DNA from: a virus
IMG/VR virus record: IMGVR_UViG_3300042691_014154
Span: 1 to 32,249 of that record
DNA length: 32,249 nucleotides
Direction: 5' to 3' (one strand)
Shown here: one piece after another, positions 1,245 to 28,230 of the stretch
Numbering within the stretch: position 1 is the first letter of the stretch
Layout: each line of letters begins with the position of its first letter
Translations under genes and position numbers: made by a program
Notes under the pieces: generated by a model
Told to the model about the DNA's origin: nothing
The model's database searches: none
The model's input: only the letters and a program-made list of their open reading frames with translations

Positions 1245-3670
1245 TGGGTTTTCCGTATTTACAGCCAATAAAAGGATGGATGGTAGAAGAGTTCAAAAGA
1301 AGAGAACAACTACCAGAAATGGAATCTCTTAAAGTTCCATTTGCAATATTAACATCTGCTGCGACAGTTGCAAAAACAAACACATATGAATCTGCAGTAT
1401 CTGGCGAAACTCCAAAAGGTATAACAACATATCATGGATGTATAATTCATAGTAATATAAATCCAGATATTAATTATTCAATGAATACAAATCCAACTGG
1501 TCAATGGTTGCAAGGAACTTCAATTGGAGTTGATTTTGATGGAAAAGCAGTGGTAGTTGATTATGATGGTGAAAACGGAGCAAGAAGACCAAGCCCAATT
1601 ATAACATCAATTTCAATAGATACGGATGGTGATAATAATGCATTAAAAACTGCTCAAATTAATCTTACACTCTTTACATTAAAACAATTAGAATTGTTTG
1701 AATTATTTTTTTGTAGACCAGGCTATAATTTATTATTAGAGTTTGGGAATAATTTTTCTTTAAAAGAAAATTTACTAAATGAATATAAAAAAATAAAAGG
1801 TTTATGGAGTTCAACAAGTAACACAGGTAAAGATACTATATTTGGACCAATTTCCGGACCGGTTGATGTTCCAAATATTGAATCTGTATTAGTTCCAAAA
1901 AATGATTATAAGACATATGTTTCAACAGAATTTCCAAGATATGTTGCTTTAAATTTGGATGAACAGGCTGCATATCATAATAAAATAATAAATACACTTG
2001 GTAATTACGATATATTTGCAGGTAAGGTTACTAATTTTACAATTGAAATGGGAGATAATGGTACATATAATGTTATGGTAGAACTATCCGCCGGTAATAC
2101 CGTTTCAATGGCTATACCAAATACAATTGCAACTGATGCGGTAAAAATAGCTGGTAAAGATAAAAACACATTATTAAAAGAAGAAATTATTTTAAAACAA
2201 TTGAGAATTGATTTAAATATACCCAAATTACAAATACCTTTAGATTATTTAAAAAAACATACATTTAATTTTATAAAACCACAGGACTTAGCAAAAGATT
2301 CAAATGTTAGTGAGTTGAGATATGTTACTTTAGATTTTGTAATAACTCATTTGGTTAATTATAGTTCTAAAAATAGTGGAATATCAGGTAAAGAATATAA
2401 ATTAGAAGCACAGGATATAAAAATAGCAGGAGCGAGTGTAAAAGGAATACCTTGTAATTATCAAAATAAATTAATATCTTCAAGTGAGGATGTTATATTT
2501 CCTGGCCAACTGCCTACTATCCTAATTGGTATTGATGATCAAAAAAGAGATGAATTACGGCTAGATGAAAAAAATCTTAGAGATTGTAGAATAAATGGAT
2601 TAGATTTTAAAATATCTGGTAATGTAGAAATACCAGAATTGGTTTATAATCAAAAAACTAAAAAAATAGAATCTAATTTTAAAAATTATAGTGCAAATAA
2701 AAATATTGGAAATGCTTTGAATATATTTGTAAATTATGAACAAGTTGTAGAGATTTGGCAAAAATCTCAAACAAAAGCAGATTTTATAAATGCGGTTCTT
2801 AGTTTAATAAATAAAAATTCGTATAGTGTTTTTAATTTAGTAACGGCACCTATACATGGTGATGCGGGCGGAGGTCCTATGACTATAATTGATAGAAAAT
2901 TTGTACACTTTACAGATAAAGATGGTAATGATATAAAATCGCCTACGGAAGTATATAGATTTAAAACAAATGGTGTAAATAGTATAGTGAGAGAATGTAC
3001 TATACAAATGGATTTGGGTAACTTAGTTGCGGGTCAAACGGTTTTCCAAACAAGTACTGCAATTGAAGATGCGTTAAAAAAACTAAAAGAAAAAGATAAT
3101 AGTTTAATAGGAAAACAATATAGTATTCCTAATTCGGACACAAACGATGCTTTGGCAAATAGATACAGAAACGCAGATGGGTATTATTCGGTAGATGGAG
3201 TTGAGTTATATGTTGTTAAAAAATATGTAGATGAAGAATTAAAACAGGCGGAAAATAAAAAACAATTTGATGACGCCGAAGCAAAAAGCAAAGCAAAAAA
3301 AGATAAAAAAGTAACAGAAAAACAACCTTCAGCAAGTTCTGTAATTGACTCAAAAGTTTTAAAGTTTAAAATACCAAAAGAAACTGGTGGAAGTGGAAAA
3401 ATAGAAATACTAATTTTAAATGATAAAAACAATGTTTTAAAAGAATTAAATTTAGTTACTGAACCATCTAATAAAACTTTAACAAATACAACTATGACTC
3501 TAACTATAAACGGAATATCTGGATTGAGTTCTGGTGAATATTTTAGAGCAAATGGAATACCTGAAATATATAATCAAAATGGAGTATTTCAAATAACAAA
3601 TGTAAAGCATTTAGTTGACGCACAAGGTTGGAAAACTGAAATAGAAGCAATGTGGTTAATAATATCGTAA
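1244..3670 (+). CDS. Large baseplate hub protein (gp27 / late-control-D-like)
   Basis: This 808-residue protein sits directly after the LysM protein. An N-terminal beta-rich region (residues about 110-175) contains SPIITSISIDTDGDNNALKT and then a helix with LELFELFFCRPGY, a layout I associate with hub proteins of contractile tails. Residues about 660-705 are a highly charged Lys/Glu linker (EELKQAENKKQFDDAEAKSK). The last 50 residues, with GEYFRANGIPEIYNQNGVF followed by GWKTEIEAMW, match the closing strands of gp27 and gpD hub domains. It is about twice the length of T4 gp27, so it may be a hub with extra inserted domains. The start ATG overlaps the upstream stop by one base. Assignment to the hub is fairly secure by context and C-terminal pattern, but fold-level confirmation is missing. 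Confidence 0.65.
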   Translation: MGFPYLQPIKGWMVEEFKRREQLPEMESLKVPFAILTSAATVAKTNTYESAVSGETPKGITTYHGCIIHSNINPDINYSMNTNPTGQWLQGTSIGVDFDGKAVVVDYDGENGARRPSPIITSISIDTDGDNNALKTAQINLTLFTLKQLELFELFFCRPGYNLLLEFGNNFSLKENLLNEYKKIKGLWSSTSNTGKDTIFGPISGPVDVPNIESVLVPKNDYKTYVSTEFPRYVALNLDEQAAYHNKIINTLGNYDIFAGKVTNFTIEMGDNGTYNVMVELSAGNTVSMAIPNTIATDAVKIAGKDKNTLLKEEIILKQLRIDLNIPKLQIPLDYLKKHTFNFIKPQDLAKDSNVSELRYVTLDFVITHLVNYSSKNSGISGKEYKLEAQDIKIAGASVKGIPCNYQNKLISSSEDVIFPGQLPTILIGIDDQKRDELRLDEKNLRDCRINGLDFKISGNVEIPELVYNQKTKKIESNFKNYSANKNIGNALNIFVNYEQVVEIWQKSQTKADFINAVLSLINKNSYSVFNLVTAPIHGDAGGGPMTIIDRKFVHFTDKDGNDIKSPTEVYRFKTNGVNSIVRECTIQMDLGNLVAGQTVFQTSTAIEDALKKLKEKDNSLIGKQYSIPNSDTNDALANRYRNADGYYSVDGVELYVVKKYVDEELKQAENKKQFDDAEAKSKAKKDKKVTEKQPSASSVIDSKVLKFKIPKETGGSGKIEILILNDKNNVLKELNLVTEPSNKTLTNTTMTLTINGISGLSSGEYFRANGIPEIYNQNGVFQITNVKHLVDAQGWKTEIEAMWLIIS

Positions 3671-3681
3671 GTAGATTTTTT

Positions 3682-4056
3682 ATGTATAAAGATGTAGCAA
3701 AAAATATAGAACAATTTACTATACAGTTTCCAAAAACAATAGTACCTAATCCAACAAAAAATGATTACTCAAATGGATTTATTCAAAGGTATTTTGTCCA
3801 AAAAGCAAATGATATCAACGGACATGTATATGAAGTTGATGAAATAGTATACTCAAAGCATATTGAAAATCCATTTTGGATAACTAATAATTTGTATTGG
3901 AGAATAAGTGGACCAATTGATACTACATATAAAGCGGATGGAGAAATAAATGATATAGGTGTTAGAAACTCCAATAAATCTGCAATTTCTATCGCTGCTA
4001 GTAAAATAAAAAACATAGGATTGTATTTGCCAAACCTATTACAATTTCACAAATAA
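3682..4056 (+). CDS. Conserved small protein of the tail/baseplate module, function unknown
   Basis: This protein has 124 residues if translation begins at ATG 3682. An in-frame ATG at 3652 would add ten residues, but those bases are the out-of-frame end of the hub gene. The later start gives a clean 11-nt gap, so it is preferred. Visible patterns are YSNGFIQRYFVQKAND near the N-terminus, then NPFWITNNLYWRISGP, and a C-terminal IGLYLPNLLQFHK. I believe this combination recurs in T4-type phage structural clusters, but I cannot name a function. There are no membrane segments and no cysteines. Position suggests a virion or assembly role. It is the last gene before a promoter-like element and a replication-type gene, so it probably closes the structural operon. 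Confidence 0.6.
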   Translation: MYKDVAKNIEQFTIQFPKTIVPNPTKNDYSNGFIQRYFVQKANDINGHVYEVDEIVYSKHIENPFWITNNLYWRISGPIDTTYKADGEINDIGVRNSNKSAISIAASKIKNIGLYLPNLLQFHK

Positions 4057-4094: not shown

Positions 4095-5366
4095 ATGAAC
4101 CTAATTGAAGATAAACAATCCTTACAATCATTTTTAAAAGGTAATGTAAATATTGACCTTATAGTTCCTGTGTGGAGTTCTCATAAAGCACATCCATTGG
4201 GTAGTCGTTTATCTTTTATATATTTTAGACATACAAATGGTGAAGATGGAATAATAAATTTCAATCACATAGATGCAAAGAAGTTAGATAAATTTGACAT
4301 ATCTAGCATAATACATGTTAATACGTTGGTTTTGGACAATAGGTATTTAAGAACAAATGGGTTAGATTATGAGTGGGTTTATTTTGAAGAGTATGGGAAA
4401 CCATTTCTATTCAACGAGTTCGTAGGATCAGTTTATAAAGGGTATAGAAACGATTATAAAGAGTTGAATGATTGTGTACCTTTAATGAAGTGGTACGAAA
4501 TACTAAAACAAATTCCAAACATCAGTAATAGAAATGAATGGAATAGAAAATATTCCACAGCAATCCGTACATTGGGAAGGCTGGAAGGGGCTGGGGTAAA
4601 GGTCGTAGAAGAAAAATTTATTGATAGTTTTGCTTTCAATCCCGCTTATATTCGTAAAGGGGGTATCGTTTATACACAATACAATCCATACACCATCACC
4701 GGTCGTCCATCCAATAGACACCTTAATGTAAACTGGTCCGCACTAAACAAAGGGGATGGGAGTAGAGAGTCCATCGTTTCTCGACATCCGAATGGTACTC
4801 TTATTCAATTTGATTATGAATCGTATCACATTCGTCTTATTGCAAAAATGGTTGGTTACGAATTTCCTAAAGGGGTTACTGCTCACCAACACTTAGCGGA
4901 TTTATATGGTGTGGATTACGAAACGGCGAAGGGTTTAACATTCCGTTACCTTTATGGGGGATTAGATGATATGGCAAGAGGAATTCCATTCTTTCAAAAA
5001 GTAGATGAATGGATAAAGGAAGTATACCAAAAGTTCATCATTTCTGGAAAACTTACGACACTCTTATACAAAAGAGAAATACATTTTGCAAGGATTGAAT
5101 CACCGACCGAACAAAAGGTATTCAATTATCTCCTACAATCGTTAGAGACTGAAATCAATTATATGAAGATTGGTGAGGTGTTGGATTTCTTAGAAGGTAA
5201 GATGAGCAAGATGGTTTTATACACATATGATGCGTTCCTTATAGATACACACCCCGCTGAAAGAGATTCGGTTTTGGATGGAGTTAGAACGATTATGGAG
5301 AAGGGTGGATTTCCGGTCCGAAGTTACGAAGGAAAGAATTACAACGATTTAGTAGTAATAGATTAA
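4095..5366 (+). CDS. Stand-alone family A DNA polymerase-like protein (Pol I palm)
   Basis: This 423-residue protein aligns by eye with the Pol I polymerase domain. It has a TITGRPSNRHLNVNW stretch (200-214, like T.TGR.S...PN.Q), motif A FDYESYHIR (239-247, catalytic Asp240), an O-helix-like motif B with K279, F283, Y287 and G288, a helix LLQSLETEIN (346-355), and motif C YTYDAF (376-381, Asp379). Both metal-binding aspartates are kept. Unusual points are His245 where Pol I has the steric-gate Glu710, Ala380 where Pol I has Glu883 (VHDE becomes TYDA), and Tyr275 where O-helix Arg754 is expected. The first 150 residues show no clear 3'-5' exonuclease motifs. The phage has a separate family B replicase at 23946-26501, so this is probably a specialised or repair polymerase. 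The family call is firm and the role is inferred. Confidence 0.75.
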   Translation: MNLIEDKQSLQSFLKGNVNIDLIVPVWSSHKAHPLGSRLSFIYFRHTNGEDGIINFNHIDAKKLDKFDISSIIHVNTLVLDNRYLRTNGLDYEWVYFEEYGKPFLFNEFVGSVYKGYRNDYKELNDCVPLMKWYEILKQIPNISNRNEWNRKYSTAIRTLGRLEGAGVKVVEEKFIDSFAFNPAYIRKGGIVYTQYNPYTITGRPSNRHLNVNWSALNKGDGSRESIVSRHPNGTLIQFDYESYHIRLIAKMVGYEFPKGVTAHQHLADLYGVDYETAKGLTFRYLYGGLDDMARGIPFFQKVDEWIKEVYQKFIISGKLTTLLYKREIHFARIESPTEQKVFNYLLQSLETEINYMKIGEVLDFLEGKMSKMVLYTYDAFLIDTHPAERDSVLDGVRTIMEKGGFPVRSYEGKNYNDLVVID

Positions 5367-5715: not shown

Positions 5716-7806
5716 ATGTCAATAAATTTTCAAGAAATCCTTAAAGAGCTAGAATACAGAGTAAATACGGGTATTATAGACTTAACAAAAGAGGAACAAG
5801 TTACAAAACTAGCTGAAATCCTAAAAGAGAATGGTGTTTCGGATGCTAATGAAATGGCACAGAAAGCTAGAGTATATTTTTCTTATTTAACAGAAGAAGA
5901 TGTTGTAAAAAACAAAAAAACAGGTAATGTTTATGTGGTTAAAAACTTTGACCCATCTAAACACTCCAAACCAACTCCTGCTGAAATTAATAAAGCAAAA
6001 GCAGCAAATGGTGGAAAATTACCTAAATCAGATAAACCCGCTTCAAAACCTGCACCAAAAGTAGGAAAACAACAAACTGCACCTAAAGCAAATATTAAAG
6101 TAAGTGGTGCAGAAAAAAGAAAAGAGAAAAAATCTAAAGAAGTTCCGAGTAAAGAAGTAAATGTTGAAAAGGGAGCAGTAGTTGTACCACCTAAACAAAA
6201 ATATGGTACAAAAGGTTCTAAACAATTGGACCAAAAGAAGGCTTCAAACAGAAATAAATTCCTTCCACCTTCTGGAATTTCAACAGAAAAAGCATTAGCT
6301 AATTTTAGGAAAGCGTATCCTGGTCAAGTAATTTCAAAATACGAATATCCAAAAGGAATAGATAAATTTTTACAAGGTAAATTACCACCAGCAGGATACG
6401 ATGCATTAAAATCATTACTTAAAATGTCAAAGCAAGGTACATTTGAACCACCAATTGGTATGATTACAGACCAATATGGTGCAGGACAAGTATCTGCACA
6501 GGCAAACGAATTGGCAATGCAAGCGGTATATTCATTTCCGCCAACAAGAGAAGGTATGGCTGCGAGAGCACAATTTATCAAATCTTTAGAAGATAATGCA
6601 GATGCAATTGAAAGAGCAGGTGGTGTTCCAATTTTAGATAGAAGTTGGATTAAACAGATGGCAGGTGCACACGATGCGTTCATTAAAAATATGAATAGAC
6701 AATATGGTGCCGGAAGATGGGAAGTAACTGGTATGACTTGGGATGTTAGAGCACAACAGGAAGCATTAGGTGCAAACTATGATGAAAAGGGTGATTCAAC
6801 TGATATAAATGCTCAAGTAAGAATTGCTGGTAAAGATATACAAAATATTGAAATCAGTTGTAAAAAGGATTGGCAAATTTATCTATTAAATGCAGGTTTG
6901 GGTGATGCTGAAAACTGGTTCTATACATTGGGACCTGAAAAAGAAAAAAGAGCTACCGAATTAAAAAATATGAAAGATGCCGAAGACCCTCGTTACGGTA
7001 AAGCAGAAGATGCGGAATTAAGACAATTATCAGAACAAGCCCTTTCTAAAGCACCTGTTAAAAATACAGAATTACAAGAAAAACAAATGGCATCTGCAGA
7101 AAAAGGATTTTTACAAACTAGAGAAATTCCATCTTCAGATTTAGGTAGAGCAATTAAAGCATGTAGAGAAAAAGGTCAAAATGACCCATTATACATTGAT
7201 AAGAATGATGAAGAATTGGTAAGAAAAGTTGCTAAATATATGAGTAAAACCAAAACATTGGATGTTGATGAGTTTAGAGCATTTTTAGGAACAAAAAGTG
7301 AAAAAGAATTTAAGAAAGCAGTAATGGTTTATAACAAAGTATTGGCCGAATATAGTGGAGATAGTAAATGGATTGATTCTCACAGACAGATTACTTATGA
7401 TTTTATGAAAGAATCTGCACAAAAAATGGCAACCAATAAAGAATTTCAGGGAATGTTGTTAAGGAAATTACAAGAGGCGATTCCTATGAAAACGATGGTT
7501 GAGGGTGTTGAAACAATGCAGATTGATGGTATGTATATTACACAAGCACATATGCAAGAAATGTTTGGTACTGATAGATGGGAAGATATTAAAGAATTTC
7601 TATCAATTAAAGTTGTAAACGGAGTTGCATCAATAGTATATTCTGCAAAAGGTAAAAAACCAGAAAAACCAATTAGATTAGCAAGTATAGAAATGAGAGA
7701 GAAAGGAGTTGGATATAACGGAGTAGTTGGTCTACAATGTAAGCCTACCAAAGATTTTGAAGATGCGTGTAGAGATATTGATGCGAAAATTAATAAAAAG
7801 ATATAA
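5716..7806 (+). CDS. Large phage protein of unknown function with possible PD-(D/E)xK-like patch
   Basis: This 696-residue protein has three visible parts. Residues 1-80 are helical with a TGNVYVVKNFDPSKH motif. Residues about 80-180 are a Lys/Pro/Ala-rich, probably disordered linker. The rest is a long folded region. Within it, STDINAQVRI (361-370) is followed after nine residues by EISCKKDW (379-386). An Asp, a short hairpin, then E-I-S-x-K on a strand is typical of ISxK/ExK variants of the PD-(D/E)xK nuclease fold. The downstream region 520-640 is helical (KAVMVYNKVLAEYSGD). Its stop overlaps the next ATG (TAATG). A DNA-processing or packaged nuclease role is possible, but the acidic residues beyond D363 and E379 cannot be placed with confidence. 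Confidence 0.55.
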   Translation: MSINFQEILKELEYRVNTGIIDLTKEEQVTKLAEILKENGVSDANEMAQKARVYFSYLTEEDVVKNKKTGNVYVVKNFDPSKHSKPTPAEINKAKAANGGKLPKSDKPASKPAPKVGKQQTAPKANIKVSGAEKRKEKKSKEVPSKEVNVEKGAVVVPPKQKYGTKGSKQLDQKKASNRNKFLPPSGISTEKALANFRKAYPGQVISKYEYPKGIDKFLQGKLPPAGYDALKSLLKMSKQGTFEPPIGMITDQYGAGQVSAQANELAMQAVYSFPPTREGMAARAQFIKSLEDNADAIERAGGVPILDRSWIKQMAGAHDAFIKNMNRQYGAGRWEVTGMTWDVRAQQEALGANYDEKGDSTDINAQVRIAGKDIQNIEISCKKDWQIYLLNAGLGDAENWFYTLGPEKEKRATELKNMKDAEDPRYGKAEDAELRQLSEQALSKAPVKNTELQEKQMASAEKGFLQTREIPSSDLGRAIKACREKGQNDPLYIDKNDEELVRKVAKYMSKTKTLDVDEFRAFLGTKSEKEFKKAVMVYNKVLAEYSGDSKWIDSHRQITYDFMKESAQKMATNKEFQGMLLRKLQEAIPMKTMVEGVETMQIDGMYITQAHMQEMFGTDRWEDIKEFLSIKVVNGVASIVYSAKGKKPEKPIRLASIEMREKGVGYNGVVGLQCKPTKDFEDACRDIDAKINKKI

Positions 7807-8213
7807 TGAACACACAACTACTTTGCCTATTTACGACAAAGGATGAGTTAGATAAATCAGTAGATTTTATATTAAAGAATTATATACTAACTAACCCAAA
7901 CGTTTTCATTTTAGAAAGTAAAACTAAACCAGAAGAAGTGTTTATTACTTTCAATGTTGAAAAGGGTTCGTCTGCAATTCCTTCTGATTGGAAAACAATT
8001 CTTGTACATAGAAAAAAACAATCAAATACAATATACACTATTAATGCCCTAAATGAAGTTGTTAAAGAAAAAACTGGTGGGCAAGTTGATACATCTTATA
8101 TTATTGATTGGGAAGAATTTAAAAATTGTATTCTTACTACATCTAATGTAGGTTACAAAAAAATACCTACAAAAGTTTTCAAAAGCTTTAATACACAAAA
8201 TTTGGAGAATTAA
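7806..8213 (+). CDS. Conserved hypothetical protein
   Basis: This 135-residue protein is translationally coupled to the preceding large gene through a TAATG overlap. It is alternating helix and strand with a central VHRKKQSNTIYTINALNEVV segment and a C-terminal WEEFKNC helix. There are only two cysteines, and no signal peptide or membrane segment. I recognise the central pattern as one that recurs in uncharacterised proteins of large myophages, but no activity is known to me. Coupling to the preceding gene suggests the two products act together. The promoter-like element for the next operon overlaps its last codons. Confidence 0.55.
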   Translation: MNTQLLCLFTTKDELDKSVDFILKNYILTNPNVFILESKTKPEEVFITFNVEKGSSAIPSDWKTILVHRKKQSNTIYTINALNEVVKEKTGGQVDTSYIIDWEEFKNCILTTSNVGYKKIPTKVFKSFNTQNLEN

Positions 8214-9947: not shown

Positions 9948-10778
9948 ATGGACATTTCATTGGCACTAAAGAGATTTAGCTCTTTACAAAACAACACTAA
10001 AAAGTCGGATTCAATTTACAAACCGGCTAACGGAAAATCACAAGTTAGAATCGTTCCGTACAAGTTCAACAAAGACATTCCTTTCATTGAACTTTATTTT
10101 CACTACAACATTAACAACAAGACTTATTTGAGTCCAATGTCGTTTGGTAGACCTGACCCTATCGTTGAGTTTGCAGAAAAACTTAAAAGAACAGGTGATA
10201 CTGATGATTGGAAAGCAGGTAAGAAAATGGAGCCAAAATTGAGAACATTCGTTCCAGTTATCGTAAGAGGTAAAGAAAACGAAGGTGTTAAATTTTGGGG
10301 ATTTGGTAAAACAGTTTATCAAGATATTTTAGGATACATTGCGGATCCTGATTACGGTGATATTACTGACCCAATCACAGGTAGAGATATTGTATTAGAA
10401 GTAACTTCAGCGGAAGAATCAAACGCATCTTACCCAACAACCACAATCAGAGTTAAACCTGCAACATCTAAATTGCACGAAGACCCTGCAACGATTAAAT
10501 CTTTATTAGAAAATCAAAAAGAAATTACTGAATTATATCAGGAATTATCTTATGCAGAATTAAAAACAATTTTAGAGAATTGGTTAAACCCATCTTCACC
10601 TTCTGGAGCAGATGATGATATTGTTGAGGAATTGGAAGCACCAAAACCAAAAGCACAACCTATTCAAGCAGAAAGCAAGCAAGAATTCAATGATTTGCCT
10701 TGGGAAAAAGATGAACCAAAGAAAGCAGCACCTGCGGACGATGTAGCATCAGCATTTGATGATTTATTTAACAATTAA
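9948..10778 (+). CDS. 32: Single-stranded DNA-binding protein (T4 gp32-like)
   Basis: This 276-residue protein has a basic N-terminus (MDISLALKRFSSLQNN) that resembles the gp32 cooperativity region, an OB-like core with FIELYFHYNINNKTYLSP and KFWGFGKTVYQDIL, and an acidic, proline/alanine-rich C-terminal tail ending DDVASAFDDLFNN. The tail is the part of gp32 that recruits replication partners. The core contains no cysteines, so the zinc site of T4 gp32 is absent. It is followed by UvsX 15 nt downstream, matching the recombination-replication grouping. It coats single-stranded DNA during replication and recombination. Family assignment rests on pattern and context and is strong. Confidence 0.85.
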   Translation: MDISLALKRFSSLQNNTKKSDSIYKPANGKSQVRIVPYKFNKDIPFIELYFHYNINNKTYLSPMSFGRPDPIVEFAEKLKRTGDTDDWKAGKKMEPKLRTFVPVIVRGKENEGVKFWGFGKTVYQDILGYIADPDYGDITDPITGRDIVLEVTSAEESNASYPTTTIRVKPATSKLHEDPATIKSLLENQKEITELYQELSYAELKTILENWLNPSSPSGADDDIVEELEAPKPKAQPIQAESKQEFNDLPWEKDEPKKAAPADDVASAFDDLFNN

Positions 10779-10793
10779 TAAAAGGTTACATTT

Positions 10794-11897
10794 ATGGCCA
10801 AAAGAGAAGAAGATTTAGCGAGTTTACTTGCTGATTCCCTTAACAAACAAAATAAGGACGGTAAGATTGCATACTTCCTGACAGATGAAGGAGGCGATGC
10901 CCCTACAAATGTTAAAGATTGGTTATCTACGGGTAACGCAATGCTAGATGTTGCAATTTCTAATAGACCTTATGGGGGGATTCCTGTTGGCCGTATTAGT
11001 GAGATTACGGGTTTAGAGCAGAGTGGAAAATCTCTGCTCTCCGCCCATCTCCTTGCTGAAACACAACGTAAAGGTGGTGTTGCAGTATTGATTGATACGG
11101 AAACCGCAGTAAGTAGAGAATACTTAGAAGCAATTGGAGTTGATATTGCAAAACTACTATATGTTTCAGTTGATACTGTTGAAGGTATCTTTGAAGCGTG
11201 TGAAACGATTATTGAAAAAGTAAGAACAGGTGATAAAGATAGATTAGTAACTATCGTTGTTGACTCAGTTGCAGCTGCATCAACTAAGAAAGAGTTGGAA
11301 GCAGATTATGATAAGGATGGTTACGCTACCGATAAAGCAATTATCATTTCAAAGGCAATGAGAAAGATTACCAACATGATTGGTAGACAATCTATTGCAT
11401 TAGTATTCACAAACCAATTAAGACAGAAAATGAACGCAATGTTTGGCGACCCTTGGACAACATCCGGTGGTAAAGCGTTGGCATTTCATAGTTCAGTTAG
11501 AGTTCGTTTAAAGAATATGGGACAATTGAAAGCAGGTGATAAGATTGTTGGTATCAAAGTAAGAGCACAAATTATCAAAAATAGAATGGGACCCCCATTA
11601 AGACATGCAGATTTTGATATTTTCTTTGATAGAGGTATTGATAATTACGGAGGATGGTTAGCAGTTATGAAAGATAACAAAATTGTTAAACAGGCCGGAG
11701 CTTGGTATGAATATATTGATATTGATTCAGGCGAAGTTATCAAATTTCAATCTAAGGATTTCGCAAAAATATTAGAAAACGAAGAAATTAAAGATCAAAT
11801 CTATCGCAGGATTTGTGAAGCAACAATATTACAATACAAAAATTCCGCATCGGAAGAAGTTGAAATTACAACGGACGAAGCAAATGAGTCAGATTAA
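10794..11897 (+). CDS. uvsX: UvsX-like RecA family recombinase
   Basis: The 367-residue product is a RecA-fold ATPase. Walker A is GLEQSGKS (73-80), preceded by the typical PVGRISEITG strand. DTETA (101-105) holds the catalytic glutamate region and LVTIVVDSVAAAS is Walker B. A loop with FTNQLRQKMNAMFGDPWTTSGG corresponds to the DNA-binding L2 region and the following GGKALAF helix. It forms filaments on SSB-coated ssDNA for strand exchange and recombination-dependent replication. Its last 14 nt overlap the start of the exonuclease gene. A local patch encoding Walker A and the next helix uses CTG, CTC, TCC and GCC codons that are rare in its neighbours. Confidence 0.9.
   Translation: MAKREEDLASLLADSLNKQNKDGKIAYFLTDEGGDAPTNVKDWLSTGNAMLDVAISNRPYGGIPVGRISEITGLEQSGKSLLSAHLLAETQRKGGVAVLIDTETAVSREYLEAIGVDIAKLLYVSVDTVEGIFEACETIIEKVRTGDKDRLVTIVVDSVAAASTKKELEADYDKDGYATDKAIIISKAMRKITNMIGRQSIALVFTNQLRQKMNAMFGDPWTTSGGKALAFHSSVRVRLKNMGQLKAGDKIVGIKVRAQIIKNRMGPPLRHADFDIFFDRGIDNYGGWLAVMKDNKIVKQAGAWYEYIDIDSGEVIKFQSKDFAKILENEEIKDQIYRRICEATILQYKNSASEEVEITTDEANESD
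11015..11040 (+). other. 9-bp perfect hairpin inside uvsX at the Walker A codons
   Basis: AGAGCAGAG (11015-11023) and CTCTGCTCT (11032-11040) are perfect complements with an 8-nt loop, unusually stable for this AT-rich genome. It covers the codons of the P-loop and the following helix. It may be fortuitous, or it could slow translation or bind a regulator. Confidence 0.4.
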
Positions 11898-12936
11898 TAA
11901 AAAGTATTTAGATATACTAAAACAAATAGATAAGGAACATAATGAATTTGGTGATTTACAAAGAAATTCCAAAACATTAGTTATTGATGGTCTTAATACC
12001 TTCATCCGTTCCTGGTCAACAGCACCTAATCTTAATGATAATGGTGACCACATTGGAGGCATAGTCGGTACACTTAAAAGTATCGGCTACGCTATCCGTT
12101 TAATTAACCCTACCAGAGTTATTATTACTTTTGATGGTAAGGGTGGTTCTAACAGCAGAAAACAAATATATTCTGGTTATAAATCCGAAAGAGGTAAAAA
12201 CAAAATCAGATTAAATAGAGCTTACACCGATTTGATGAATGAAGAAGATGAACAGGTTTCTATGAAACGTCAAATGGTTGGTTTAGCTGAGTTATTAACT
12301 TGCTTACCGGTTACTGTTATGGTATATGATGGTATTGAAGCAGATGATGTAATGGCATATATAGCTACTCAACTAAAACAAGAAGGTGAAAAGGTTATTT
12401 TAATGAGTACCGATAAAGATTTCTTACAATTAGTAAACAAAGATGTAAGTGTATACTCCCCATCTAAAAAGAAAATCTACAATATAGATGAAGTTTTAGA
12501 AGAATTTGGTATCCATCCACACAATTTTATTAATTTCAGAATGATTGACGGAGACAAATCCGATAATGTTGGTGGTATAAATGGATTGGGAATAAAATCT
12601 ATTATTAAGAGTTTTCCAATTCTAACCGAAGAAACATATCACACAACGGAAAGTATGATTGAATATGTAGAAGCAATAGATAAAAAAACAAAAGCACATG
12701 AATTGTTTTTAAATCATTTGGCAATTTGCGAAAGAAATCGTAGATTGATGCAGTTATCTGAACCAGAGTTTAGTGGTAATCTTCGTATGAAAATTATGAA
12801 TAGATACGATGAACCAACCCCTAAGTTTGATAAACAGGCATTCTTAAAATTAGGATTGAAACATAGAATGTTAGAAGGATTTCCAAATGTGCTGGATTGG
12901 TTACAATCAACATTTTCACATATAGCAAAATTTTAA
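11884..12936 (+). CDS. 5'-3' exonuclease / flap endonuclease (RNase H-like, FEN family)
   Basis: This protein has 350 residues from ATG 11884. The longer in-frame start at 11815 would overlap uvsX by 83 nt and is rejected. Conserved metal ligands are visible in order: VIDGLNTF (D35), ITFDGKGG (D84), an arch with RKQIYSGYKSER (92-103), IEADDVMAY (E152, D154, D155), STDKDFLQL (D177, D179) and GDKSDNVGGINGLG (223-236) of the helix-hairpin-helix. This is the T4 RNase H and Pol I 5' nuclease family, which removes Okazaki RNA primers and flaps. The stand-alone Pol A-like protein at 4095 lacks this domain, so the two could act together. Its first 14 nt overlap the uvsX end. Confidence 0.9.
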   Translation: MSQINKKYLDILKQIDKEHNEFGDLQRNSKTLVIDGLNTFIRSWSTAPNLNDNGDHIGGIVGTLKSIGYAIRLINPTRVIITFDGKGGSNSRKQIYSGYKSERGKNKIRLNRAYTDLMNEEDEQVSMKRQMVGLAELLTCLPVTVMVYDGIEADDVMAYIATQLKQEGEKVILMSTDKDFLQLVNKDVSVYSPSKKKIYNIDEVLEEFGIHPHNFINFRMIDGDKSDNVGGINGLGIKSIIKSFPILTEETYHTTESMIEYVEAIDKKTKAHELFLNHLAICERNRRLMQLSEPEFSGNLRMKIMNRYDEPTPKFDKQAFLKLGLKHRMLEGFPNVLDWLQSTFSHIAKF

Positions 12937-12952: not shown

Positions 12953-13261
12953 ATGACAACAGACAAATTAGCAAAACCATTGGGAGATAGAGTTCTTCTA
13001 ACGGAATTAGAAGGTGAAGCATCAACAACCGCAGGAGGAATTATTATTCCGGATAGCGTAAAAGCAGAAGATGTTAAAAGAGCAAAAGTAGAAGCAGTTG
13101 GTGATGGTTTATTTACACAATCAGGTGTAGCAATCCCAATGAGTGTAAAAGTTGGTGATGAAGTAATTCTTCCACCATACCATCAAGGAGTAGAAATTAA
13201 AGTTGGTGGAAATAAATACATCTTATTAAGAGAGTCCGAATTATTAATGGTTATTAGATAA
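12953..13261 (+). CDS. groES: Co-chaperonin GroES (T4 gp31 functional equivalent)
   Basis: The 102-residue protein is a clear Cpn10. It starts with PLGDRVLLTELEGE, has the mobile loop STTAGGIIIPDSVK (residues about 25-38) that docks on GroEL, the roof region VAIPMSVKVGDEVILPPY, and the closing YILLRESELLMVIR. The mobile loop is of bacterial type, unlike T4 gp31. No GroEL is in the window, so it would work with host GroEL, probably to fold the major capsid protein or other large phage proteins. It starts with an AAAGTTATG context and lies 16 nt after the exonuclease gene. Confidence 0.95.
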   Translation: MTTDKLAKPLGDRVLLTELEGEASTTAGGIIIPDSVKAEDVKRAKVEAVGDGLFTQSGVAIPMSVKVGDEVILPPYHQGVEIKVGGNKYILLRESELLMVIR

Positions 13262-13282: not shown

Positions 13283-13510
13283 ATGAAGTGTCTTAAAAAC
13301 AAACAAACGGGAAACATCATCAGAGTTGATGATAAACAGGCTTATCAAATGGCAGGAAGCACATGGGAATATGTTGCAAAAGCCGAATGGAAAAAATTGG
13401 TAAGAGATGTTAAAACTGAAAAGCAAGAAGTAGAATCAGAAAAGAAAGAAGAAACTTTATCTGAAAAGGCTTTAAAAAGAAAAAAACTTAAAGAAAAACA
13501 AAGAGCATAA
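13283..13510 (+). CDS. Small charged protein, function unknown
   Basis: The 75-residue product has an N-terminal segment KCLKNKQTGNIIRVDDKQAY, then WEYVAKAEWKKLVRDV, and a long Lys/Glu-rich C-terminal tail that is likely a coiled or disordered helix. One cysteine is present. No enzyme motif is visible. It lies between groES and the helicase and is coupled to the helicase by a TAATG overlap. A helicase-associated or loader-like role is conceivable from position only. It has a GGAGG ribosome-binding site, unlike its neighbours, so it may be translated strongly. Confidence 0.55.
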   Translation: MKCLKNKQTGNIIRVDDKQAYQMAGSTWEYVAKAEWKKLVRDVKTEKQEVESEKKEETLSEKALKRKKLKEKQRA

Positions 13511-14868
13511 TGGAAGCAGTAGATACATTAGTTAAATATGGCCAATCGTATCAATCTAAAGTTGTTGCTTCACTCATCACAGATGCTAAGTTTTTAGAGC
13601 AAGTAACCGAAATTACTAAAACAACTTTTTTTGAATCGCAAGCAAACCAGTGGATTGTAAAAGAAGTACAAAATTATTTTGACGAATATCGTGCAATTCC
13701 TACAATGGAAGTGTTCAAAATTAAAGTTGGAGATATTGAGGATAAAGTTCTTAAGCAAACGGTAATTGAACAATTAAAACAGGTATATTTACAAGTCAGT
13801 TCAGAAGATTTACCTTATGTTAAGAAAGAGTATCTTACCTTTGCTAAAAACCAAAAGGTTAAAGAAGCTTTATTAAAATCAGTTGACCTTCTAAAAGCAG
13901 GTAATTATGATAAAATTATAGATACAATGATGGCCGCATCTAAAGTAGGTGTGGAAAATGATTTGGGTTTAGATTTTATTGATGATTTTGAATCTATTTT
14001 GGAAAATGTTAAAAGAACATCAGTAGGTACAGGATGGGATGTTATTGACGAATTAATGGATGGAGGTTTAGGTCCAGGTGAATTAGGAGTAGTTATGGCA
14101 CCATCGGGTATTGGTAAGAGTTGGTTCTTATCTAAAATTGCATGTGCGGCTTTACAGAGAGGTGTAAATGTATTACATTACACACTAGAGTTATCCGAAT
14201 CATATGTTGGACAAAGATATATTACAATTCTTACGGGTATTACAACCGCAGACCAGAAACTAAATAAAGGAGAAATTATTCGCAAAGTTAAACAAACTGA
14301 AGGTAGAGTAAAAATTAAATATTATCCACCACAATTTGCATCTGCTAAAACACTTTCGGCACACATTGAAAAAGTAAAAACTACCGGATTCAATCCACAA
14401 TTAATCATCATTGATTACGCGGACTTATTAAAAAGTGGCAATAGGGGCAGTGATGGGTTGTACGCAGAGTTAGGTGGGATATATGAAGAATTGAGAGGAT
14501 TGAGTGGTGAAACTGGAATACCTGTTTGGACAGCAACTCAAACAAATAGAGCAGCAATTGATCACGAAGTTATTCAAGCAGATTCGGTTGGTGACTCGTA
14601 TAAGAAAGTTCAAACCGCAGATTTCATTATGAGTGTGAGTAGAAAGACCAAAGATAAATTATCAAACACAGGTCGTATTCACATTGTAAAGAATCGTTTT
14701 GGTCCAGATGGTATGACATTCCCCGCAAAGATAGATACATTTCATGGTATTATGGATGTGTTTGCAGCAACATCAGTAGATGGTATGATGGCAACAAAGG
14801 AAAGTAAAAATGGTGAAGGACTTGAAAAAAAACTACTACATAAAAAGTATGTAGAGAATATGGGATAA
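13510..14868 (+). CDS. 41: Replicative DNA helicase, DnaB/gp41-like
   Basis: This 452-residue protein has an N-terminal helical domain (1-150) and a RecA-fold C-terminal ATPase. Walker A is APSGIGKS (197-204), preceded by GPGELGVVMA. A YTLELSE motif carries the catalytic glutamate, LIIIDYADLL is Walker B, and VWTATQTNRA matches the DnaB H3-type glutamine region. The GPDG segment near the end corresponds to the arginine-finger strand. It unwinds DNA as a hexamer at the fork. The start overlaps the preceding gene by one base, and its stop overlaps the first SPPY methyltransferase-like gene by one base, so the two are co-translated. No primase (gp61-like) is visible in the window. Confidence 0.9.
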   Translation: MEAVDTLVKYGQSYQSKVVASLITDAKFLEQVTEITKTTFFESQANQWIVKEVQNYFDEYRAIPTMEVFKIKVGDIEDKVLKQTVIEQLKQVYLQVSSEDLPYVKKEYLTFAKNQKVKEALLKSVDLLKAGNYDKIIDTMMAASKVGVENDLGLDFIDDFESILENVKRTSVGTGWDVIDELMDGGLGPGELGVVMAPSGIGKSWFLSKIACAALQRGVNVLHYTLELSESYVGQRYITILTGITTADQKLNKGEIIRKVKQTEGRVKIKYYPPQFASAKTLSAHIEKVKTTGFNPQLIIIDYADLLKSGNRGSDGLYAELGGIYEELRGLSGETGIPVWTATQTNRAAIDHEVIQADSVGDSYKKVQTADFIMSVSRKTKDKLSNTGRIHIVKNRFGPDGMTFPAKIDTFHGIMDVFAATSVDGMMATKESKNGEGLEKKLLHKKYVENMG

Positions 14869-15923
14869 TGATAAATTATAATAGTTTTAGTAGGTTTATT
14901 GAAGTTGATGATTTGGATTTAGAATATCACAAAATTACCTCAAATATATTTGAGGTAACCGACAGAGAACATGCTGAAAAAATTATATTTGATTATCACC
15001 GAAAAAAAGGATTCCCACATTATAATGTTCCAAAGCATCAAAAACTAGCTCAATTAAAATCGTTGATTAGTTTTGATGAAGATACAATTTATAAAGACGG
15101 AAAATTAGAACAAACAATGCATTGTTTATCATTAGCATGGTCCTATTTTCCACATTGGGTTGAGGTAGCATGTGGCAACAATAAAATGAAACCAATTGAT
15201 TATTGGAATGATGATAATAAGTTAAAAGAAGTTATAAGAAAAACTTGGGATTGGCAATTGAAACATGGTAATGGAACATTTACACTAAATAGATTGAGAC
15301 AGAATTTTAAAATATATGGAGGAAATCAGTCGGTAAGTAACTTCCGACCATCAGTAGCTAAATGGATTTATAATACCTATGGTGGTGAATCCGTTTGGGA
15401 TATGAGTTGTGGATGGGGTGGTAGGCTGACTGGGTTTCTTACAAGTAGGTGTAAAACGTACATAGGAACGGATCCTTCCACTAAAACATATGAAGGGTTA
15501 GTAAGATTAAAGGATGAATTAAACTTCTTTAATAAGGAGATAATACTTCATAAAATCGGTTCTGAAGAATTTACACCGGAAAAAGAAAGTTTAGATCTGT
15601 GTTTTACTTCTCCTCCTTATTTTGATACTGAAAAATATTCAGATGAAGAAACTCAATCTTATAAAAAATTTCCATCCGAAACAGATTGGTTAAATGGATT
15701 TTTAAAACAAACTATGGCAAATTGTCATATTGGATTAAAAGTAGGAGGAAGAATGTTAATAAACATTGCAAATACTCCTAAATATAAACAAATTGAAACG
15801 GAAACCGTTAGAATTGCCGAAGAATTGGGATTTACAAAAACTGACACTTTGTACCTTATATTATCTTCAGTAGCAGGAAACGGAACTAAATTAGAACCAA
15901 TATTTGTGTTTATTAAAAATTAA
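14868..15923 (+). CDS. SPPY methyltransferase-fold protein, paralogue 1
   Basis: The 351-residue protein has an N-terminal region of about 155 residues without recognised motifs, then SNFRPSVAKWIYN, a motif I-like glycine loop DMSCGWGGRLTGF (178-190), an acidic residue after strand 2 (YIGTDP, D202), and motif IV TSPPYFDTEKYS (247-258) followed by DEETQSYKKF. Motif order is I then IV, as in gamma-type amino-methyltransferases, but no target-recognition domain follows. SPPY occurs in N4-cytosine and some N6-adenine methyltransferases. Two paralogues lie at 20358 and 22366. It overlaps the helicase stop by one base, so it is made with the replisome. A 24-bp palindrome lies within its 5' part. 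The substrate is unknown. Confidence 0.75.
   Translation: MINYNSFSRFIEVDDLDLEYHKITSNIFEVTDREHAEKIIFDYHRKKGFPHYNVPKHQKLAQLKSLISFDEDTIYKDGKLEQTMHCLSLAWSYFPHWVEVACGNNKMKPIDYWNDDNKLKEVIRKTWDWQLKHGNGTFTLNRLRQNFKIYGGNQSVSNFRPSVAKWIYNTYGGESVWDMSCGWGGRLTGFLTSRCKTYIGTDPSTKTYEGLVRLKDELNFFNKEIILHKIGSEEFTPEKESLDLCFTSPPYFDTEKYSDEETQSYKKFPSETDWLNGFLKQTMANCHIGLKVGGRMLINIANTPKYKQIETETVRIAEELGFTKTDTLYLILSSVAGNGTKLEPIFVFIKN
14935..14958 (+). repeat. Perfect 24-bp palindrome inside the 5' end of paralogue 1
   Basis: The arms TTACCTCAAATA and TATTTGAGGTAA are exact complements with no spacer, centred between 14946 and 14947, 67 nt into the gene. It could be a protein-binding operator as DNA or a stable hairpin as RNA. 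It was the longest perfect palindrome I noticed by eye. Confidence 0.65.
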
Positions 15924-16081: not shown

Positions 16082-17938
16082 ATGGACATTTCACAAAGGA
16101 TTTTATCAGACATTACGGTCTATATGAAGTACGCAAAGTTTAGACCAGAATTAAACAGAAGAGAAACATGGGAAGAGTTGGTTACCCGTAATATGGATAT
16201 GCATATTAAAAAATACCCACAATTAGAAACGGAGATTAGAGAAAATTATAAATTTGTGTATGATAAAAAGGTTTTACCTTCTATGCGTTCAATGCAGTTC
16301 GCAGGTAAACCAATTGAAATAAGTCCAAATAGAATTTACAATTGTGCATTCGCACCGGCAGATGATTGGAGAGTATTCTCAGAAATTATGTTCCTCTTAT
16401 TAGGTGGAACAGGTGTAGGATATTCTGTACAAAAACATCATGTAGAGCAATTACCTGAAATTAGAAAACCAAATCAAGATAAAACAAGAAGATTTCTTAT
16501 TGGAGATTCTATTGAAGGATGGGCAGACGCAATTTCTGTGTTAATTAAAGCATATTTCTTTGGAGGAAGTAAGCCAGTATTTGATTTTAGAGATATCCGT
16601 CCAAAGGGTGCACGATTAATTACAAGTGGTGGTAAAGCACCAGGACCTCAACCACTTAAAGAGTGTTTGATTAAAATTGAAGGAATTTTAGATGGTAAAA
16701 AAGATGGTGATAAATTAGAACCAATTGAAGTGCATGATATTATTTGCCACATCGCTGATGCAGTATTAGCAGGTGGTATTCGTAGAGCAGCATTAATTTC
16801 TCTTTTCTCTGCAAATGATGATAAGATGATTAGTTGTAAAAGTGGTGCTTGGTGGGAAAATAATCCACAAAGAGGTAGAGCTAACAACTCAGCAGTTCTA
16901 ATGAGACATAAAATCACAAAATCATATTTTATGGACTTGTGGAAAAGAATTGAAGCAAGTGGTGCCGGTGAGCCTGGTATCTACTTATCAAACGATAAAG
17001 ATTGGGGAACTAATCCTTGCTGTGAGATTGCATTAAGACCTTTCCAATTCTGTAACTTATGTGAAGTAAATGTAAGTGATGTAGTAGACCAGGATGATTT
17101 GAATGCAAGAGTTAAAGCAGCATCATTCATCGGAACATTACAAGCAGGCTATACTGATTTCCATTACCTAAGACCTATTTGGCAAAGAACAACCGAAAAA
17201 GATGCACTTATTGGAGTATCTATGACAGGTATTGGTAGTGGTGCGGTATTGAAATTAGATATGAAAGCGGCTGCTAAAGCAGTAAAAGAAGAAAACATAA
17301 GAGTAGCAGATGTATTGGGCATAAACCATTCAGCAAGAACCACAACTGTTAAGCCTGCAGGAACAACATCATTGACATTGGGAACAAGTAGTGGTATTCA
17401 CGCTTGGCATAATGATTACTACATTCGTAGAGTAAGAGTTGGTAAAAATGAATCAATATACAATTACCTAACTTTAAATCATCCTGAATTAATTGAAGAT
17501 GAATATTTTAGACCGCATGATACTGCAGTAATTGGTATCCCACAAAAAGCACCTGAAAACGCAATTTTCCGTACTGAATCACCTATTCAATTATTGGAAA
17601 GAGTTAAAAGAGTTCATAACGAATGGATTAAACCGGGTCATAGAAGTGGTAACAACACACATAATGTATCAGCAACGGTTTCAATCAGAGAGCACGAATG
17701 GGATGCAGTTGGTGAATGGATGTGGGAAAATAAAGATGCATACAATGGATTATCAGTATTACCTTACGATGGTGGAACTTATATTCAAGCACCATTTGAA
17801 GATTGTACGAAAGAAAAATACGAAGAATTAATGAAAACATTAAATGATGTTGATTTATCAAAAGTAGTTGAATTGGAAGATAATACAGATTTGAGTGGTG
17901 AATTAGCTTGTGCGGGAGGTGCTTGTGAAATTAAATAA
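16082..17938 (+). CDS. Adenosylcobalamin-dependent (class II) ribonucleotide reductase
   Basis: This 618-residue protein reduces ribonucleotides to deoxyribonucleotides. Visible elements are the first redox cysteine in RIYNCAFAP (C88), the glycine-rich LLLGGTGVGYSVQ (105-117), the radical-cysteine loop NPCCEI (N311, C313, E315), TVKPAGTTSLTLG, and a C-terminal redox pair ACAGGACEIK (C-x4-C). It resembles monomeric RTPR-type enzymes but is shorter than the Lactobacillus enzyme. No small (NrdB-like) subunit is nearby, consistent with class II. A DUF5522 protein and a thioredoxin follow with overlaps, and thioredoxin would re-reduce the C-terminal pair. The first 12 bases (ATGGACATTTCA) are identical to those of the SSB gene. 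It depends on host or environmental cobalamin. Confidence 0.88.
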   Translation: MDISQRILSDITVYMKYAKFRPELNRRETWEELVTRNMDMHIKKYPQLETEIRENYKFVYDKKVLPSMRSMQFAGKPIEISPNRIYNCAFAPADDWRVFSEIMFLLLGGTGVGYSVQKHHVEQLPEIRKPNQDKTRRFLIGDSIEGWADAISVLIKAYFFGGSKPVFDFRDIRPKGARLITSGGKAPGPQPLKECLIKIEGILDGKKDGDKLEPIEVHDIICHIADAVLAGGIRRAALISLFSANDDKMISCKSGAWWENNPQRGRANNSAVLMRHKITKSYFMDLWKRIEASGAGEPGIYLSNDKDWGTNPCCEIALRPFQFCNLCEVNVSDVVDQDDLNARVKAASFIGTLQAGYTDFHYLRPIWQRTTEKDALIGVSMTGIGSGAVLKLDMKAAAKAVKEENIRVADVLGINHSARTTTVKPAGTTSLTLGTSSGIHAWHNDYYIRRVRVGKNESIYNYLTLNHPELIEDEYFRPHDTAVIGIPQKAPENAIFRTESPIQLLERVKRVHNEWIKPGHRSGNNTHNVSATVSIREHEWDAVGEWMWENKDAYNGLSVLPYDGGTYIQAPFEDCTKEKYEELMKTLNDVDLSKVVELEDNTDLSGELACAGGACEIK

Positions 17939-19853: not shown

Positions 19854-20367
19854 TTTTGTAAAAGCAGAAAAAGGTACAAATGAAATGACAGAAGCAGTGA
19901 ATCAAGCATCTGCTATCATTGATTTGTATCCTGAAATATTTCCACATCTCCATAAACAGGGATTTAAATTGGAAAAGTATATTGAAAAAGGTGGTATGAT
20001 ACTGCAAGATGGTGTTGTAGTTACTTTTGGTAGATATGGTAGTAATGGTAAAATGAGTAGGAATGCAAACACATACAAAAAGAAAGGTGATTATATTCTT
20101 CATCAGATTGCAAGTAACCATGCAGTGACGGGAGCATCGGTTAGAGTTCTTAATAAATTTATAGAGTACTGTAAATCACAACACGCAGAAAATCTATTTT
20201 TGACAGTTAGAGAATTTAATACCAGAGCCGTTGAGTTCTATTATAGAAATGGATTTGTAAAAGATAGTGAAATATATTGGACATCTAAAAAGGATGGTAT
20301 AATACCTGGTATTGTTTTTAGATTACGATTAGTTGCTGATAAAAATATTGAAACAGTATGTTCATAG
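19846..20367 (+). CDS. GNAT-fold acyltransferase
   Basis: This protein has 173 residues from ATG 19846. A TTG at 19840 is possible but not needed. The fold markers are GDYILHQIASNHAVTGASVR, which includes the acyl-CoA loop and its helix, then LFLTVREFNTRAVEFYYRNG and the strand EIYWTSKKDGIIPGIVFRL. The family is shared by many phages. Mu Mom, which carbamoylmethylates adenine, is also a GNAT-fold protein, but I cannot show a specific relationship. It overlaps the amidotransferase by 8 nt (ATGCTTAA) and the second SPPY gene by 10 nt, so the three are co-translated. It probably transfers an acyl group to a small molecule, protein or nucleobase. Confidence 0.8.
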   Translation: MLNFVKAEKGTNEMTEAVNQASAIIDLYPEIFPHLHKQGFKLEKYIEKGGMILQDGVVVTFGRYGSNGKMSRNANTYKKKGDYILHQIASNHAVTGASVRVLNKFIEYCKSQHAENLFLTVREFNTRAVEFYYRNGFVKDSEIYWTSKKDGIIPGIVFRLRLVADKNIETVCS

Positions 20368-21587
20368 AATATTTTAATAAGTTTAAAGGTATGCAACCAT
20401 ATCTTTATATTAATAAAGAAGAATGGGAATACATACAAAAAACATTTGATAGAGAAGATGTTAAAGAATCTCTTGCAGATATTTGTATGGAATATCCATT
20501 ACCATATGCGGAAATTAGTGAAGAAGAAGCTAGAAAAGAATATCTTAAACTAAAAGGAATTCGTTGGAGAGAATTACTAACTGAAGGTGAATGGTTTCCA
20601 AGAAAAGCATCGGATTTTAGATACTCATTGGATTTTCAAGGTAAACCGCAATATTTTAGAAGATTAAATACTGGAAATGAAGCTTCCAATTTTTTCCAAC
20701 AAGAAAATCGTTGGAGTGTTGATGGAACTGTTTCACCTGGCCCTTTAAGAACTTGGACAAATAGGGAATTTATGGTTACTCTAATGGGTGGGTTATATAC
20801 ACTTAAATTTGATGTAGTAGATAAGGCAGCTTTGAGAGTATGTTTAAGTTTAAGAAAATACATATGTTCACAATTTAAACCAAATGTTGCTAAGGCTTTG
20901 TACGATTATGTTGAAGCTGAGAATGTATTAGATATATCAGCCGGATGGGGAGATAGAATGTGTGGATTCTTTGCAAGTGAAAAAGGTAAACACTATGTAG
21001 GTATTGATCCTCGTAAAGAAAATCATCCAATATATCGCCAACAGGCAGATTTTTATTCTAAAAATAATGGATTCTTTGAAACTGAAAAGAAAGCAGATTT
21101 TATAGAATCTCCTGCAGAAGATGCAGACCTTTCAATGTACAAAGAACATTTTGATATTGTATTTAGTTCACCTCCATATTTTAATGTTGAAAGATATTCA
21201 TACGATGATACTCAAAGTTGGGTAAGATATAAAAATATTGATGACTGGAATACATTGTTTTTACACAAAACAATTTCAAATGTATGGCCAACTATTAAGA
21301 AAGGAGGATATTTGGCTATAAACATTGCAGATGTGTATGCAAGTTCTAAAGGAGATGGTAAAGGTTACAAAGAGATATGTAATCCAATGAATGATTTTAT
21401 TCAAACATTGGGTGCAGAATATCAAGGGTGTTTGGGTATGGAAATGGCCAAAAGACCGGGTAGTGCGGGTGCAGGTTCTATTATAGAAGGTGATGAAGAT
21501 CGTTATACGGAAGAAGCATTGGCAAAGGCGGCAGAGGCAGGTGATAAAACATTCTGTGAACCAATTTGGATTTGGAAGAAACTTTAA
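20358..21587 (+). CDS. SPPY methyltransferase-fold protein, paralogue 2
   Basis: This 409-residue protein shares its core with the proteins at 14868 and 22366: QFKPNVAKALYDY, a glycine loop DISAGWGDRMCGFF (192-205), YVGIDPRKE (D217), SPPYFNVERYS (271-281) and DDTQSWVRYK. The N-terminal 170 residues differ, with WFPRKASDFRYSLDF and RRLNTGNEASNFFQ. The C-terminal strand LAINIADVYASS is typical of the methyltransferase fold. A GAGAGSIIEGDEDRY loop near residues 371-385 is unique to this copy. It is the third gene of a coupled operon with the amidotransferase and GNAT. A methyl or other transfer to DNA, RNA or nucleotide is possible. Confidence 0.75.
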   Translation: MFIEYFNKFKGMQPYLYINKEEWEYIQKTFDREDVKESLADICMEYPLPYAEISEEEARKEYLKLKGIRWRELLTEGEWFPRKASDFRYSLDFQGKPQYFRRLNTGNEASNFFQQENRWSVDGTVSPGPLRTWTNREFMVTLMGGLYTLKFDVVDKAALRVCLSLRKYICSQFKPNVAKALYDYVEAENVLDISAGWGDRMCGFFASEKGKHYVGIDPRKENHPIYRQQADFYSKNNGFFETEKKADFIESPAEDADLSMYKEHFDIVFSSPPYFNVERYSYDDTQSWVRYKNIDDWNTLFLHKTISNVWPTIKKGGYLAINIADVYASSKGDGKGYKEICNPMNDFIQTLGAEYQGCLGMEMAKRPGSAGAGSIIEGDEDRYTEEALAKAAEAGDKTFCEPIWIWKKL

Positions 21588-27984: not shown

Positions 27985-28230
27985 ATGGAACAGCAAATGG
28001 GACCTCAATTACCACCAAATTTCAATTTAAATGATGCAAGAGACATGGAATGTGATTGCGGTGGAAAAGTATTTATGCCAGGATATAGATTTAAAAAAAT
28101 ATCTAGATTACTAACGGGCGCGGCGAAAGATTCGGTTATGCCAATTGAATTGTATCTATGTGCAAAATGTGGAAAACCTCTAAATGAATTATTACCACAA
28201 GAATTACAAGAAACAAAAATTATTGAATAA
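27985..28230 (+). CDS. Small zinc-ribbon-like protein between clamp-loader genes
   Basis: The 81-residue product has MECDCGGKVFMPGYRFKKIS at its centre and LCAKCGKPLNELLPQE later. The pairs C-x-C (residues about 23-25) and C-x2-C (about 58-61) look like a zinc ribbon. The N-terminus is Gln/Pro/Asn-rich. Its stop overlaps the gp62-like start by one base (TAATG), and it lies 6 nt after gp44, so it belongs to the clamp-loader operon. I recall similar small zinc proteins in cyanophage-type genomes, but the function is unknown. It may serve in transcription or loader assembly. Confidence 0.6.
   Translation: MEQQMGPQLPPNFNLNDARDMECDCGGKVFMPGYRFKKISRLLTGAAKDSVMPIELYLCAKCGKPLNELLPQELQETKIIE

Follow-up and report, generated by a model that had tools for sequence, protein, structure and literature searches.

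The window (the whole stretch of viral DNA that was analysed, 32,249 nucleotides long; IMG/VR record IMGVR_UViG_3300042691_014154) carries an intact open reading frame at 4095-5366 (+), with an ATG start and coordinates that include the stop codon, encoding a 423-amino acid (aa) protein related to family A DNA polymerases. This gene is followed by a companion gene encoding a 135-aa protein and by genes for gp32, UvsX, a Pol I-type 5' nuclease and gp41, with a family B replicase (PolB) and a clamp loader further on. The initial annotation had placed a second polymerase, of family A, beside a PolB replicase, and both enzymes proved to be real. The features concerned are the following:

3652-4056 (+): conserved gene just upstream of the polymerase, putatively baseplate wedge gp53-like, by position only
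4095-5366 (+): divPolA1-type family A polymerase gene, 423 aa, with a vestigial exonuclease-fold domain, a thumb stub, a palm and reduced fingers
4812-4829 (+): motif A, from the codon of D240 (catalytic Asp, aligned to D705) to that of H245 (His at the gate position, aligned to E710), invariant in 214/214 relatives
4917-4955 (+): O-helix codons Y275 to Y287 (K279=K758, F283=F762, Y287=Y766), from alignment and conservation
5226-5234 (+): motif C codons Y378-D379-A380, invariant in 214/214 relatives
7806-8213 (+): companion gene, 135 aa, small alpha/beta protein, distributed across phages as divPolA1 is
9948-10778 (+): gp32-type single-strand DNA-binding protein (PF08804, E 2e-16)
10794-11897 (+): UvsX/RecA-type recombinase (PF00154, E 7e-61)
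11884-12936 (+): Pol I-type 5'-3' exonuclease, a flap/primer-removing nuclease (PF02739, PF01367), its start set at an in-frame ATG
13510-14868 (+): gp41/DnaB-type replicative helicase (PF03796, phrog_19)
23946-26501 (+): family B replicase with exonuclease domain (PF00136, PF03104)
27031-27978 (+): gp44-type clamp loader (phrog_168)
28230-28682 (+): gp62-type clamp loader (phrog_225)

Gene neighbourhood and companion gene

The order companion, gp32, uvsX, 5' nuclease and gp41 is common to Flavobacterium phage immuto, Microcystis phage Mel-JY01, the 484-kb metagenomic phage LR756508 and a Winogradskyella MAG contig, and the polymerase holds the same operon position across distant lineages. The Pol I-type 5' nuclease is present in 16 of the 17 carriers of the polymerase, the exception being truncated, and a search for ATP-dependent ligases detected their OB domain in a single one of the 17.

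The gene at 3652-4056 has no match in Pfam or PHROG, and the same is true of a 696-aa open reading frame (5716-7806) between the polymerase and the companion. A GroES-like Cpn10 gene (12953-13261) lies between the 5' nuclease and the helicase. A class II B12-dependent ribonucleotide reductase is encoded at 16082-17938; the corresponding site in immuto (L082 6895-9483) is occupied by a class I pair, NrdF/NrdA. Three apparently related methyltransferase-like genes (14868-15923, 20358-21587 and 22366-23937), interspersed among the replication and nucleotide genes, share an 'SPPYF..E.YS.DE/DTQS' motif; the first, the only one scanned, matches PF01555 (E 1e-4).

The companion gene was found in 165 of the 166 fetched loci with enough flank, and in a search of 50,697 phage records it occurred in the same six records as the divPolA1-type polymerase. 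Members of the companion family are 135-150 aa long and have an invariant HRKK..N.Y.TINALN core, with a degree of conservation that matches that of the polymerase. The AlphaFold2 model of the companion (pLDDT 91.9) has a ferredoxin-like N-terminal part, and the fold search returned only common ferredoxin-like matches, with Z under 7. Searches against Pfam (no match), PHROGs and PADLOC gave nothing convincing, and identity with T4 RegA was rejected, no similarity being found.

Homology, fold and active site

Taken alone, the 423-aa protein matches Pfam DNA_pol_A with an E-value of 2e-7, just under the curated cut-off, and the same Pfam family is matched by 23 of the 34 family members. The protein also matches a PHROG DNA polymerase (E 8e-11), and E. 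coli Pol I aligns with the polymerase family profile at E 5e-8 (hhalign). Its homology to family A is thus beyond chance. The AlphaFold2 model, built from an alignment of 34 diverse relatives, has a mean pLDDT of 92.9 and a pTM of 0.90. Its best structural matches are Pol I enzymes: residues 1-421 superpose on the large fragment of Bst Pol I (residues 301-876) with Z 26 and an rmsd of 3.9 over 395 residues, and Taq is likewise among the matches. The initial annotation described a stand-alone palm, a description that does not hold, since fingers, the stub of a thumb and a vestigial domain with the exonuclease fold are present as well; the model matches a Klenow-type fragment from end to end, and the protein is therefore a shrunken but whole Klenow-like enzyme rather than an isolated palm.

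In addition to the fold, the protein shares with the Pol I large fragment (Klenow, Bst, Taq) the positions of motifs A, B and C, the TGR motif and the equivalent of Q849. It differs in its length (423 versus about 605 aa), in its shorter fingers, in the substitutions E710H, R754Y, H881Y and E883A, and in having the 5' nuclease as a separate gene. The segment that forms the thumb (GVKID to TGR) is 33-35 aa long in the family (33 aa in the window protein) versus 120 aa in E. coli Pol I, and the model shows a short helix in this region. No conserved Asp/Glu pair is present at exonuclease motif I in 214 distinct relatives (variants PVWS, VIS and PFV), so that the proofreading site can be taken as lost. 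Bst and Taq polymerases are likewise without an active exonuclease. The dN/dS of the family lies between 0.07 and 0.18, and the family is under purifying selection.

Residues were assigned from a HMMER alignment to Taq and an hhalign alignment to E. coli Pol I, which agree. The two metal-binding aspartates are D240 (D705) and D379 (D882); in addition, H245 corresponds to E710, Y275 to R754, Q348 to Q849, Y378 to H881 and A380 to E883. Nine residues (D240, H245, K279, F283, Y287, Q348, Y378, D379 and A380) are invariant in all 214 distinct full-length relatives, which are not independent counts, although the lineages differ in about 70% of their sequence (about 28-31% identical). Most of the active-site description in the initial annotation is thereby borne out: both catalytic aspartates are kept, as are Lys and Tyr of the O-helix, both alignments place His and no Glu at the Glu710 gate, and motif C is altered, with Ala at Glu883. 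The Tyr reported at Arg754 is correct for the window protein and is not a family-wide feature, since position 275 is variable (Y in 164/214, in others L, I, T and V among the residues found, and Arg in 1/214).

The Glu at position 710 is described as universally conserved in family A and as belonging, with Y766, to the closed nucleotide pocket (PMC4882331), which makes an invariant His in the divPolA1-type family unusual; this His is a derived feature of the divPolA1 branch. His nonetheless has a bulky side chain, which may or may not admit ribonucleotides. The polymerase of Thermus phage Tt72 provides an experimental comparison. It is an active family A enzyme with a natural Ser at the E883 equivalent, where the S616A mutant retains 76% activity; the E389A mutant (E710 equivalent) retains 35%, and mutation of either catalytic Asp leaves 4% (PMC9324360). 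The Tt72 enzyme differs from the window protein in retaining Glu at the gate and in its strong proofreading (PMC9324360). Loss of the carboxylates at 710 and 883 is, by analogy, compatible with activity of a family A enzyme. We infer that the 423-aa protein retains polymerase activity, as catalytic D240 and D379, together with K279 and Y287, are invariant and dN/dS is low.

The conservation just described bears on the idea that the protein is a catalytically dead scaffold with a polymerase fold. Several active-site changes (H245, Y275, Y378 and A380) would fit such a scaffold, which is nonetheless quite improbable, because lineages with about 28-31% identity all retain the two metal-binding aspartates as well as Lys and Tyr in the O-helix, and because comparable losses leave the Tt72 polymerase active (PMC9324360).

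The initial annotation also read motif C as partly RNA polymerase-like. This reading finds no support: T7 RNA polymerase shows no similarity to the polymerase profile (hhalign probability 0.04%, E 0.9), whereas similarity to Pol I is clear, and a residue other than Glu at position 883 is also found in phage DNA polymerases (Ser in phage CRP-235; Ser616 in Tt72, PMC9324360). Kinship with RNA polymerases was rejected on the profile result; T7-type RNA polymerases are also not among the fold matches listed, which shows little.

The divPolA1 family, its replicases and its primases

The family itself was already known. It was described by Yutin et al. (2024, Virol J 21:200; PMC11348598) from 14 phages including immuto, whose gp001 is named as a divPolA1. 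The published members occur in large phages, always accompany a regular PolA, PolB or PolC, and have a truncated thumb, an inactive exonuclease in which all three aspartates are replaced and intact catalytic residues in the palm; a participation in replication was suggested (PMC11348598). Immuto gp001 matches the window polymerase (tblastn E 1e-37) and is alignable over its full length, and the window protein thus belongs to this family. The two share an additional polymerase in the genome, a truncated thumb, a dead exonuclease (loss at motif I in the window protein), the palm residues and the downstream replication genes. The window member differs from those published in that it lies in a PolB phage with two extra genes between polymerase and companion.

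The published set contrasts with the hundreds of metagenomic loci found here: two scans of metagenomic viruses gave 207 and at least 596 confirmed matches, and IMG/VR holds hundreds of members. Compared with the published description, the new elements are this abundance, the finding that the unusual residues are strictly conserved, the test for primases, the 5' nuclease that accompanies the polymerase, and the companion gene; the text of the paper is silent on the gate residue, on the companion gene and on co-occurring primases (PMC11348598). The protein is predicted to be a small, proofreading-dead helper polymerase carried by large aquatic phages alongside their main polymerase.

In a palm-domain tree with four other family A enzymes, the divPolA1-type family groups firmly together, on a very long stem and with too few outgroups to place its origin within family A. 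Two looser matches, in Roseobacter phages CRP-3 and CRP-235, were rejected as members because they are of a different kind, the CRP-235 gene encoding a family A polymerase of 701 aa that has Glu at its gate. An origin from cells or plasmids was also rejected: there was no plasmid match, and only three MAG contigs were found among genome contigs, two of them with phage gene neighbours. On a Flammeovirgaceae MAG contig (L166 8052-8540), a 162-aa open reading frame corresponds to the C-terminal part only of a divPolA1-like protein, with YDS replacing YDA.

Two other groups of compact or divergent enzymes resemble the family. TV-Pols are compact family A-type polymerases of mobile elements and viruses, predicted to be prim-pols, with a coiled-coil thumb, an RxxxK motif in the fingers and an association with D5 helicases (Iyer et al., 2008; PMC2579912). 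The window protein has none of these three features and, unlike TV-Pols, has a vestigial exonuclease domain; membership was rejected because the thumb is a stub and Y275xxxK279 stands where RxxxK is expected (Arg in 1/214). The divPolA2 of barbaviruses is likewise a second divergent PolA beside PolB, with no canonical thumb (PMC11348598). By the published description, it has another N-terminal domain and a variable gene neighbourhood.

The main replicase of the carriers is not constant. PolB was found in the window, Mel-JY01, LR756508 and six IMG/VR relatives (8/17 among the records tested), and full-length PolA in immuto and four relatives, so that 13 of the 17 carriers have PolB or full PolA; contigs classed as linear make up the remaining four. 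In these four (G002, G006, G008 and G009), the absence of PolB was not accepted as a sign that divPolA1 is itself the replicase, because the contigs are linear and the window PolB lies about 20 kb downstream of the polymerase, a distance that falls beyond each contig end. In LR756508.1 (regions 258000-272000 and 47415-48068), two long open reading frames give PolB matches, and there is also a PolC-type (DnaE) match. The small enzyme is kept while the replicase changes family, and it is therefore not the replicase.

The initial annotation saw no primase and considered a primer-making polymerase in its place. The first point is true of the 32-kb window, which lacks a primase because it is only a fragment, and does not extend to the relatives. 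In a search with the DnaG-annotated protein of immuto, each of the 16 relatives that are 137 kb or longer proved to carry a gp61/DnaG-type primase, as did one relative of 101 kb; no match came from five contigs, which measure 110-126 kb and are without exception classed as linear. The primases found are distantly related to T4 gp61, and the TOPRIM acidic residues are kept in the nine that were aligned. The divPolA1-type enzyme is therefore no primase replacement. That it makes RNA primers de novo, as a primase substitute or RNA polymerase in a primase-less phage, is very improbable: the His at the E710 gate, the Ala at E883 and the reduced thumb would suit such an enzyme, whereas the 16 longest relatives carry primases, with conserved TOPRIM residues in those aligned, the best structural matches are Pol I enzymes, and the profile shows no similarity to T7 RNA polymerase.

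A proposed accessory polymerase and its alternatives

The reading somewhat favoured here is that this divPolA1 member is a degenerate bacterial Pol I-type large fragment that serves as an accessory polymerase for short synthesis in replication, recombination or repair, and not as a replicase. It draws on homology and fold, on conserved residues and selection, and on gene order together with the co-occurrence of a primase, a nuclease and a separate replicase; activity, low processivity, the partners and the task would follow from these. The two-metal polymerase centre is kept, but the proofreading site is gone, together with most of the thumb and some of the fingers. With the thumb absent, weak primer-template binding and low processivity are expected, and synthesis would be distributive, with few nucleotides added per binding event. 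The polymerase would probably be held on DNA by partners from the same operon: gp32, UvsX, the 5' nuclease and perhaps the 135-aa companion. Its likeliest task would be gap filling after the Pol I-type nuclease has removed RNA primers or flaps, as a Pol I in two pieces, and it may also extend recombination intermediates or damaged ends.

The Pol I-type 5' nuclease is common in phages without divPolA1, such as T4, which makes its co-occurrence with divPolA1 weak evidence for this task. In the immuto lineage, the full PolA replicase could itself fill gaps, and the idea of a two-piece Pol I is not compelling there. That the search for ATP-dependent ligases was positive in a single carrier also weighs against this reading. 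The invariant His, the Tyr-Asp-Ala motif and Glu351 also suggest a changed active site, beyond what plain gap filling explains.

The main rivals of accessory gap filling are a primer extender resembling Pol alpha and a translesion enzyme. In the former, an exonuclease-dead enzyme of low processivity would extend the RNA primers of the gp61-type primase before the replicase takes over, possibly inserting some ribonucleotides. The lack of proofreading, the reduced thumb and a position adjoining gp41 and gp32 whichever family the replicase belongs to would fit this role. The primases of Mel-JY01 (L091) and LR756508 (L092) have lost their zinc-finger cysteines and kept the TOPRIM acidic residues, which leaves room for altered priming in these two phages. 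However, the primase gene lies elsewhere in the genome, with no physical link to the polymerase, T4-type replication does not require such an enzyme, and a bulky His need not open the gate, so that this role is considered unlikely. The more elaborate proposal of a phage counterpart of Pol alpha, in which a His-gated enzyme complexed with the 135-aa companion extends primers, perhaps with mixed rNTPs and dNTPs, and keeps its place in the replisome while the replicase is swapped between families A, B and C, is speculative and rather improbable.

A dedicated translesion or damage-tolerance polymerase would be consistent with the absence of a proofreading site, the reduced fingers and thumb and the nearby UvsX recombinase. 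It is also judged unlikely, because no lesion-bypass inserts or motifs were identified and because the gene is kept in every carrier, which suggests a core function rather than an optional role in damage.

In this family, a stripped-down second polymerase is a constant component of a phage replication module that is widespread and whose main replicase can come from one or another unrelated family. Its task, once known, would explain what these replisomes need in addition to a replicase. With its invariant gate His and Tyr-Asp-Ala motif, the family lends itself to testing how family A enzymes discriminate between dNTPs and NTPs, and the companion gene is a concrete candidate partner for divPolA1.
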